Below, in pieces: positions 19,060 through 55,980 of a stretch of DNA of 64,000 nt. The DNA is taken from assembly GCF_011058315.1 (NCBI RefSeq), contig NZ_CP049298.1, positions 2,232,001 through 2,296,000 of the forward strand. Reading direction: 5' to 3'. Under the pieces are notes generated by a model that had not been told where the DNA came from, ran no database searches, and was given only the letters and a program-made list of their open reading frames with translations. Position numbers and translations under genes: made by a program. The DNA comes from Chryseobacterium sp. POL2. GTDB taxonomy: Bacteria > Bacteroidota > Bacteroidia > Flavobacteriales > Weeksellaceae. Numbering within the stretch: the stretch's first letter is position 1; each line of letters starts with the position of its first letter.

Positions 19060-20247
19060 TTAAGCTATCACGCCACTTCCCAACAATTCTTCGTCAAGAT
19101 ACCAAGCCGCGAATTGTCCTTCAGCAATGGCGGATTGCGCTTCATCAAATTCCATATAGAAAGCTTCATCAAACTGATAAATAGTGGCTTCCTGCAAAGA
19201 TTGTCTATAACGGAATCTGGCTTGGACACGCATGCTTTCGCCATTGTTTAATTTTAAATCTTCTCTTACCCAATGCACTTCGCTGTTGTCAATTTTCAGA
19301 GCTTTTTTGTGGAGGCCAGGAAAAGCGTGACCTTCGCCCACGAAAATGATATTGTTGGTCATATCACGAGAAATAATAAAACAACTTTCTTTGTGACCAC
19401 CAATTCCTAGACCTTTGCTCTGTCCGATGGTGAAGAATTGCGCGCCTTGATGTTTTCCAATAACTTTTCCGTCCTCTTTTTTATAATCGATTTTTCGGGA
19501 AAGATATTCTAGTTCTTCTTGTTTGGAACTGAAACGAGGTATGGGTTTCGAAAACTCGGCAAAATCGTTAAAGATTTCAACAATTTCGCCTTCTTTTACC
19601 TCCAATTGTTGTTGCAAGAAAGTTGGCAAACTTACTTTTCCGATAAAGCATAAACCTTGCGAATCTTTTTTGTCAGCAGTTACAAGACCTGTTTCTCTTG
19701 CAATTTCCCGAACTTCAGGTTTTGTTAGTTCGCCAATTGGAAAAAGCGCTTTTGATAATTGATCTTGACTCAATTGACATAAAAAATAAGATTGATCCTT
19801 GTTGTTGTCTTTACCTGCCAAAAGGTGGAAAATCTCTTTGCCGTTTTCATCAACTGTAGAATCTACCCGCGCATAATGTCCTGTGGCAACTTTATCAGCG
19901 CCAAGAGATAAAGCCGTCTGCATAAATACATCGAATTTCACCTCGCGGTTACAGAGCACATCAGGATTCGGCGTGCGTCCTTTCTGATATTCGTCAAACA
20001 TATAGTCCACGATACGCTCTTTGTAAAGCTCGCTCATGTCAATTACCTGAAACGGAATGCCCAATTTCTGAGCAACCATCAAAGCATCATTACTATCTTC
20101 CACCCAAGGACACTCGTCCTCCAAAGTTACCGAAGCATCATTCCAGTTACGCATAAACAGTGCAATCACCTCGTGTCCTTGCTGTTGCAAAAGATACGCG
20201 GTTACGCTAGAGTCCACACCGCCGGATAGGCCAACTACTACTTTCAT
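19060..20247 (-). CDS. mnmA: tRNA-specific 2-thiouridylase MnmA
   Basis: MnmA inserts sulfur at C2 of U34 in the wobble position of Lys, Glu and Gln tRNAs. The 395-residue protein has the ATP PP-loop [10 protein letters not shown] (residues 6-15), the catalytic cysteines in [10 protein letters not shown] and GLCFIGK, and the TGHYAR motif. Length is normal or slightly long. The upstream sequence is unusual: about 230 bases separate the gene from a candidate promoter (20475-20482), and this leader holds a GC-rich structured element (20295-20397). Confidence 0.96.
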
Positions 20248-20294
20248 AATGTTTAAAATTTTAGGAGCAGGACAATTTTTCTTTTTTTAGAAAA

Positions 20295-20397
20295 TTCTCA
20301 CCCGCTGTCCGCTGTATCTTTATTGTTCGCTCGGTCGGCTCCGCTATCGCTCCGCCGCCTCGCTCACAACAAAGGATGTCGCTTCCATCGGGGCTAG
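20295..20397 (-). repeat. GC-rich structured intergenic element, copy A (in mnmA leader)
   Basis: On the minus strand this begins AGCCCCGATGGAAGCG and ends GATACAGCGGACAGCGGG. Between them a stem forms from CTTTGTTGT (plus 20366-20374) and ACAATAAAG (plus 20318-20326), with a GC-rich apical part containing GCGGAGCGATAGCGGAGCC. Its base composition is far above the neighbouring AT-rich DNA. It shares flanks with copies B (43289-43391) and, less clearly, C (55815-55915). Elements with the same flanks occur widely in flavobacterial genomes as I recall, but no function is established. The overlapping 82-codon reading frame is not credible. Confidence 0.7.
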
Positions 20398-20474
20398 GTT
20401 GTAGGGATTTCCATTTTTTAGAACAACAACCAACTGCTGTGACGCTCGCTACGCTCGCGCCATATTTCACAGTG

Positions 20475-20482
20475 CAAAAATA
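20475..20482 (-). promoter_or_regulatory. Candidate -7 box for mnmA
   Basis: The minus strand reads TATTTTTG, a TAnnTTTG match, with a TTG 15 bases further upstream (a little short of the usual spacing). It would give mnmA a leader of about 225 bases containing structured element A. Confidence 0.4.
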
Positions 20483-43268: not shown

Positions 43269-43287
43269 GGAGCCTTGTTACGGCTCC
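43269..43287 (+). terminator. GC-rich hairpin after rnhA
   Basis: GGAGCC and GGCTCC form a six-pair stem with a TTGTTAC loop, just before element B. There is no T run after it, so terminator action is uncertain. Confidence 0.4.
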
Positions 43288-43288
43288 C

Positions 43289-43391
43289 ATAGCCCGGATT
43301 GAACGGCATGTCGGAGCTCATCTTGTATTTTGGGATGGCTTTTTGCGGAAGGAAATACAAGATAGCGACTAGTGAAAGCCGGAACAGCTTC
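43289..43391 (+). repeat. GC-rich structured intergenic element, copy B
   Basis: The element starts AGCCCGGATTGAACGGCATG and ends GATAGCGACT, then AGCCGGAACAGCTTCT. In the middle ATCTTGTATTT (43320-43330) and AAATACAAGAT (43353-43363) form an 11-pair stem. Flanks match copy A and copy C, but the stem sequence differs, which indicates conserved structure rather than conserved stem bases. It lies between rnhA and the nitroreductase gene on the plus strand. Confidence 0.7.
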
Positions 43392-55814: not shown

Positions 55815-55915
55815 TCTGTGAGGGCGCAGTGCATTGTTGGAGCTCGTTTTGCGATGGCTGGGCGGAGCCGAAGCCAACGAAAACAGCGACTGCACGAAGA
55901 CCGACCCGCATGTTT
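55815..55915 (+). repeat. GC-rich structured intergenic element, copy C
   Basis: The element contains TGTTGGAGCTCGTTTTGCGATGGC and later CGAAAACAGCGACTGCACGAAGACCG. These match copy B's TGTCGGAGCTC, GATGGCT, AGCGACT and AGCCGG in order and spacing. CGTTTT with GAAAACAG can form the central stem. Base composition is clearly higher in GC than the flanks. It lies between DUF4260 and the prfA promoter. About 40 further GC-rich bases follow without clear match to the other copies. Confidence 0.6.
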
Positions 55916-55980
55916 TTGCAAAGCTTTTAGCCAAGGCAAAACAAAGGGGCACAGCCAAAAAATAATTCCCTGAAATTTTG

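Follow-up and report, generated by a model that had tools for sequence, protein, structure and literature searches.

Flavo-1 (Rfam RF01705) was described by Weinberg et al. in 2010 as a probable RNA that is not cis-regulatory (PMC2864571), and it has been listed since then as a computationally found bacterial RNA. In a 2022 review it ranks with the most abundant sRNA families of Rfam, its function field being left blank (PMC9029176). In F. psychrophilum, many Flavo-1 matches are untranscribed, strand is of no importance, and several 5′ transcribed regions overlap matches to the family (PMC9723704). Consistent transcription of Flavo-1 is not supported by these F. psychrophilum data. The family is a known one that published work leaves unexplained, and the remark in the initial annotation that no function is established agrees with all three papers.

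Two classes of mobile repeat offer further points of comparison. REP/BIME elements with their RAYT (TnpA_REP) share with Flavo-1 the form of dispersed intergenic hairpins with conserved mismatches, present in tens of copies and in both orientations; unlike them, Flavo-1 is longer (75-150 nt), builds a three-way junction, leaves its apical sequence free and has no linked RAYT. The MITEs of Bacteroidetes, such as BrickBuilt of Porphyromonas (PMC5771137), are likewise short, non-coding, interspersed intergenic repeats, whereas the terminal inverted repeats of Flavo-1 are limited to a 3-5 bp stem (P1) and its fold is conserved while much of its sequence is not. We focus here on one Flavo-1 copy upstream of mnmA and on its relatives within and beyond its genome. 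The fold of these elements covaries and is strand-specific. Their placement takes no account of gene direction, and orthologous sites retain them even as the flanks decay. With a probability of about 0.55, we read Flavo-1 as a selected, strand-specific structural repeat that acts more likely as folded single-stranded DNA than as RNA, action as DNA being the part that we infer.

The window is the whole 64,000-nucleotide stretch of DNA that was analyzed. Within it, cmscan retrieved a full-length RF01705 match on the minus strand at 20294-20399 (copy A; 53.5 bits, E 8.7e-9, model positions 1-76; the gathering cut-off is 42 bits). The features of this locus are as follows.

19060-20247, minus strand: mnmA, tRNA 2-thiouridine(34) synthase (NCBIfam NF001138, 437 bits, cut-off 284)
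20266-20300, minus strand: P3-like hairpin of copy A (AATTTTC/GAAAAATT) and 3′ P1 strand GCT (from sequence, fold and ortholog comparison)
20294-20399, minus strand: copy A, Flavo-1 element (RF01705), type 1 (from cmscan)
20301-20321, minus strand: 3′ arm of copy A, consisting of AAAGAT, loop ACA, GC, loop GGA, CA, G.A mismatch and CGGG (from sequence and pairing columns)
20322-20370, minus strand: variable apical hairpin of copy A, GC-rich, with a GGA/GGA 3x3 internal loop and a GATA cap (from sequence and fold)
20371-20395, minus strand: 5′ arm of copy A, consisting of AGC (P1), CCCG, A.G mismatch, TG, loop GAA, GC, loop GAC, ATC, bulged C and TTT (from sequence and the pairing columns of a 117-sequence alignment)
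20475-20482, minus strand: candidate mnmA promoter −7 box TATTTTTG, which fits TAnnTTTG (from sequence)

The conserved ends of copy A read AGCCCCGATGGAAGCG at 20395-20380 and GATACAGCGGACAGCGGG at 20318-20301 on the minus strand, with the central stem CTTTGTTGT/ACAATAAAG between them, exactly as the initial annotation had quoted them; its placement of the element between a promoter-like box (20475-20482) and the mnmA ATG (20247) was confirmed as well. The box conforms to TAnnTTTG, the published flavobacterial sigma-A motif (PMC9723704). Both ends are unique within the window even at 3 mismatches (0.00 and 0.10 matches in shuffles). P1 pairs AGC (20395-20393) with GCT (20268-20266), and a P3-like hairpin lies in between. 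This hairpin is kept in the ortholog of the congener Soonwooa buanensis, where the apical hairpin has been exchanged for a different one.

Copy A belongs to a large and unevenly distributed family. Its own genome (3.24 Mb, one contig) holds 38 Flavo-1 matches at E<=0.001, and under stricter filters matches occur in 31 of 59 genomes of the same order, with very uneven counts from 0 to 66; fuller scoring gives 60 copies in S. buanensis and 106 in G009. This spread through Flavobacteriales bears out the statement in the initial annotation that similar elements occur across Flavobacteriia. The outcome that it had named as a refutation, no further copies or no covarying pairs, clearly did not occur. 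No Flavo-1 match was present in 14 control genomes, and one query of PLSDB plasmids and INPHARED phages returned none either. That the element is a product of chance or low complexity, an idea to which its repetitive, GC-rich apical part lends itself, is already refuted by the Rfam E-value, the 38 genomic copies, the empty controls and the covariation, and its probability is negligible.

Two further members of the superfamily lie in the window.

43287-43389, plus strand: copy B, divergent superfamily member with inner module GGAGCTC...AGCG (from a sub-threshold RF01705 match and fold)
55816-55956, plus strand: copy C, superfamily member with a three-way junction, P1 CTGTG/CACAG, P2 with GGAGCTC...AGCG, and P3 CCC...GGG (from sequence, unconstrained fold and a pattern match at G000:2287839)

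Copy B scores 23.5 bits against RF01705, under the Rfam cut-off, and has the architecture of copy A with a GGAGCTC...AGCG inner module. Its existence and its quoted stem stood up to analysis (three exact AAATACAAGAT sites against 0.21 expected), but the claim that it has the same flanks as copy A did not, the 5′ end differing at 4 of 16 positions. The third copy that had been counted in the window is most likely copy C, which is of the GGAGCTC type; the Rfam model misses it, and unconstrained folding returns the same three-armed shape. GGAGCTC-type hairpins gave 10 exact pattern matches genome-wide against 0 for the reversed pattern. The 10 places in G000 that carry this subfamily include 709426, 1932783, 2037884 and 2951756. 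The subfamily has the same architecture, lies outside RF01705 and deserves a covariance model of its own.

Examination of the aligned copies led to a fold that is larger than the one in Rfam and new here, namely a three-way junction made of a closing stem (P1), a long P2 arm and P3, a hairpin that varies. Copy A shares with RF01705 the P2 core and the Bacteroidetes range. The Rfam model ends at the base of P2; it covers neither P1 nor P3, and it takes in neither the CCC/GGG to GGG/CCC subtypes nor copies B and C, the relatives with a GGAGCTC module. Read from its base, P2 comprises CCCG/CGGG or GGGA-type/CCC, an A.G mismatch, TN/N′A and an internal 3x3 loop (GNA opposite GGA or GAA). Above these follow the GC step of 2 bp, another loop measuring about 3x3, AUC/GAU, the bulged C, UUU/AAA and a free apical helix. 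Across 122 arms aligned from the own and related genomes, the mismatch retains its A in 120 and its G in 119, and the bulged C is present in 121. Unconstrained folding produces the three-way junction in many copies, among them L216, L218, L220, L223, L225, L226 and L228.

The P2 arm covaries strongly and almost purely by Watson-Crick exchange, an observation that is new here. Pair counts used 117 distinct P2 cores, type 3 being omitted because a direct MAFFT alignment puts it out of register by one base. Column pair 25-57 occurs as GC (40), TA (37), AT (29) or CG (7), with pairing in 97% of the cores against at most 60% after shuffling. Pairs 21-61 (CG72/GC33/TA9) and 20-62 (CG75/GC36/AT5) flip from C-G to G-C, pairs 30-52 (CG95/TA20) and 29-53 (GC100/AT15) change together, and 34-48 is an additional base pair gained or lost as one unit. 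These six are the best Watson-Crick candidates by APC-corrected mutual information and lie within its top nine scores, the other top scores touching the adjoining insertion. The closing stem behaves in the same manner. In type 2, P1 takes the form GCNNN ... N′N′N′GC followed by C(C), with the P3 hairpin between P2 and the 3′ P1 strand. Among 33 elements with a recognisable 5′ GCNNN, the 5-mer meets its exact partner no more than about 105 nt downstream in 30, whereas 5-mers taken from other elements were matched in 3 of 264 trials. The forms include GCAAT, GCGTG, GCGAT, GCGTT, GCGCG, GCATA, GCGAC and GCGTA. Type 1 has a shorter P1, read by eye as AGC/GCU or AGCC/GGCU, and type 3 (L036, L037, L065 and L108) has GCAGC/GCTGC, with GCAAC/GTTGC in related copies. 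The covariation of P2 and P1 bears out the suggestion in the initial annotation that conserved ends surround stems which keep pairing while their bases change. Swapping of whole inner modules between copies was also considered and has been partly withdrawn, given that some seeming swaps (AUC(C)/GAU against GCU(C)/AGC) are explicable as compensatory change on either side of one shared bulged C.

Selection on the fold can be followed at individual sites through orthologous copies, another observation that is new here. Both flanking genes of 23 own copies could be aligned to S. buanensis (about 75-88% nucleotide identity), and about 22 of these 23 sites, judged by eye, are occupied there by a superfamily element, mostly of the same subtype; this count takes in the sibling-type sites L020 and L036 and leaves out L037, which is empty in S. 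buanensis. In 18 measured ortholog pairs, core identity is 0.92 against 0.79 between non-orthologous copies, while identity is 0.69 in the apex, 0.67 in the upstream flank (baseline 0.55) and 0.72 in the downstream flank. Several orthologs differ by compensatory changes in place (L015, C-G to T-A at 25-57; L019, A-T to G-C at 29-53; L232, T-A to C-G at 30-52; L011, both base pairs of the GC step), from which it follows that the fold is under selection site by site. Between genera, Flavo-1 sites turn over. On the mnmA side, Epilithonimonas and its relatives have empty sites at L043, L113 and L115, and type 3 relatives with differing interiors at L065, L108, L102, L096, L055 and L080. These empty sites have diverged too far for base-exact junctions, and the element ends share the 3-5 bp P1 alone. 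At one intergenic site (L113:1843-1922, L055:958-1050 and L115:1268-1367), one species has Flavo-1 and two have unrelated hairpin repeats (TTGGTTGTTAG.../CCATCAACTGACAACC and GTCATTCCGACGAACG...).

The strand that folds can be read from its errors. Isolated mismatches in the apical Watson-Crick helices comprise G.T (28), A.G (13), G.G (4), C.T (2), A.A (1) and A.C (0). Mutation of double-stranded DNA should yield G.T and A.C equally, so the folding strand is the one with the conserved loops. This asymmetry separates the strands; by itself it cannot separate RNA from single-stranded DNA. A structured RNA within or beside mRNAs, binding a protein or affecting mRNA stability, would account for the strong, strand-specific, covarying fold and for purine-rich internal loops typical of RNA, and it agrees with the transcribed 5′ regions of F. 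psychrophilum that coincide with matches (PMC9723704). The tolerance of G.T in the apical helices suits RNA equally, and sheared G.A loops form in RNA and DNA. In the core, by contrast, such wobble pairs are nearly unused (6 of 1565 cells), which speaks against RNA, as does the published finding that many matches are untranscribed and that strand is immaterial (PMC9723704).

Genomic placement bears on the same question. Flavo-1 copies lie in intergenic DNA and show no preference for gene direction, which is new here. For 106 copies with flanks long enough, the nearest gene is tandem-sense in 29, tandem-antisense in 32, divergent in 22 and convergent in 19, with 2 copies inside an open frame and 2 unclear; the ORFs were called mechanically, so single assignments may be wrong. 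Among the S. buanensis stretches, gaps measuring 90 nt or more are tandem in 126 cases, divergent in 63 and convergent in 26. The equal share of sense and antisense placements counts against an RNA within mRNAs, and the copies do not stand in sense orientation ahead of a consistent set of genes, as a cis-regulatory leader or riboswitch would. Within 120 nt of the element, 50 TAnnTTTG boxes point away from it and 25 into it; upstream promoters are thus not enriched, and box orientation in the flanks gives no sign of a promoter belonging to Flavo-1. The filing of RF01705 as Gene; sRNA finds no support in this placement. Taken with the evidence on its other side, the RNA reading appears possible but rather unlikely.

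The preference for single-stranded DNA rests on this placement, the published transcript map, the lack of promoters, a core nearly devoid of G.T, and the apices found in Weeksellaceae. There, GC-GNA-GC triloops cap 53 of 122 arms against 0.6 in shuffles, and the DNA hairpin d(GCGAAGC), which is of this type, is extraordinarily stable (PMC6582339). The Flavobacteriaceae copies inspected carry no GNA caps and use others, so the Weeksellaceae caps may be a single inherited apical sequence; they were dropped as decisive proof of DNA. This absence counts against the DNA reading, together with the apical G.T tolerance and a replication-strand bias that single-stranded DNA would lead one to expect but that is weak, uneven and derived mainly from one genome (126 of 213 copies leading). 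It counts against it too that a promoter-like box precedes both copy A and the ortholog in S. buanensis, placing copy A in what would be the mnmA leader of this species.

Flavo-1 might instead be a REP-like element moved in trans by a RAYT or another Y1 (HUH) transposase and largely neutral. Its high copy number, dispersal, hairpin shape and patchy occurrence between genera are consistent with this, and Flavo-1 and Y1_Tnp counts correlate over 49 genomes (rho 0.69); both, however, follow genome size (rho 0.71 and 0.69, respectively), and six genomes with 3-14 copies (G002, G015, G029, G030, G034 and G036) have no Y1_Tnp match. The link to REP-associated transposases that the initial annotation had suggested failed on inspection of 20 Y1_Tnp/RAYT neighborhoods (about 105 kb), which hold one Flavo-1 in total, roughly the chance level, and RAYT/Y1 was rejected as a cis-linked partner. 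Most of the Y1/RAYT genes examined are bordered by palindromes of their own, such as CGGATTTGCAATCCG, and not by Flavo-1, likewise a new observation. Orphan arms flanking an ORF, as in an autonomous form, were absent from about 2.8 Mb. Neutrality is contradicted by retention at orthologous sites and by core conservation, and we consider a REP-like origin of this kind unlikely. A protein partner, a target-site duplication or a clean recent insertion was not found for Flavo-1 itself.

The RAYT/Y1 genes of L129, L134 and L127 (also L123 and L130) have matching short palindromes on both sides (CGGATTTGCAATCCG/CGGATTGCAAATCCG; CAAGGTTTCCAAAACCTTG), which are probably REP elements of their own. In L040 (G000:850252-850506), palindromes of the AGCTTCGAGC type border a Y1_Tnp/RAYT-like coding stretch that lies in frame within a type I restriction hsdR-like gene (1284 codons, no stop), and Y1_Tnp matches in G004:C133 and G051:C73 likewise fall inside very long open frames.

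On the preferred reading, that of a repeat selected for its single-stranded fold, the Flavo-1 superfamily comprises repeats of about 75-150 nt, dispersed between genes, in which one defined strand takes the shape of a hairpin (type 1) or of a three-way junction (type 2, with P1, the long arm P2 and the variable P3). The active form would be a folded single DNA strand, present at replication forks, in repair or after extrusion, rather than a dedicated RNA, and a putative structure-specific protein would read it. The copies would descend from past dispersal and now be kept by selection on the fold. As a speculative and doubtful extension, Flavo-1 could, rather than being an sRNA, belong as its best-sampled member to a class of single-stranded DNA elements that form three-way junctions in the chromosome, with tens to >100 shape-selected sites per flavobacterial genome and a putative structure-specific protein serving a chromosome-wide role (e.g., replication, repair, recombination or domain structure). 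Should the majority of copies be blind to orientation, lack promoters and be selected as a one-strand three-way junction, classification as RNA is probably wrong. Looking for targets of a Flavo-1 "sRNA", or for regulation by it, would then be misdirected, and attention would shift to the protein that reads the fold. With P1, P3 and the second inner module included, the extended fold improves the model with which copies can be sought and offers precise mutants for tests.

Copy A beside mnmA would be one such site and not a regulator of that gene. The initial annotation had raised the possibility of a long mnmA leader, and in this species and S. buanensis the element does lie upstream of the mnmA ATG and downstream of the promoter-like box. 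In G027, G071, G007 and G059, however, it lies upstream of the promoter-like TAnnTTTG box of mnmA, which is new here, most other mnmA leaders inspected contain no Flavo-1, and the 37 other genomic copies stand near unrelated genes in both directions. Flavo-1 is not a conserved mnmA leader, and a cis-regulatory role of copy A in mnmA expression is very improbable. Upstream of mnmA in L163 and L169, the Flavo-1 apex consists of the repeat TGTCATTGCGAGGAACGAAGCAATC, one dispersed repeat nested inside another. The 60 nt upstream of mnmA (L041-L055, L143-L155 and others) contain two alternative short conserved leaders, one (AACTAAGAACTCCCGTTAAGAGTTTCGTAAAATTGA) in Chryseobacterium/Epilithonimonas and the other (AAACTTTCCCTTAACGAAAGCGTAA) in other genera, which resemble small hairpins and could be the true mnmA control element.
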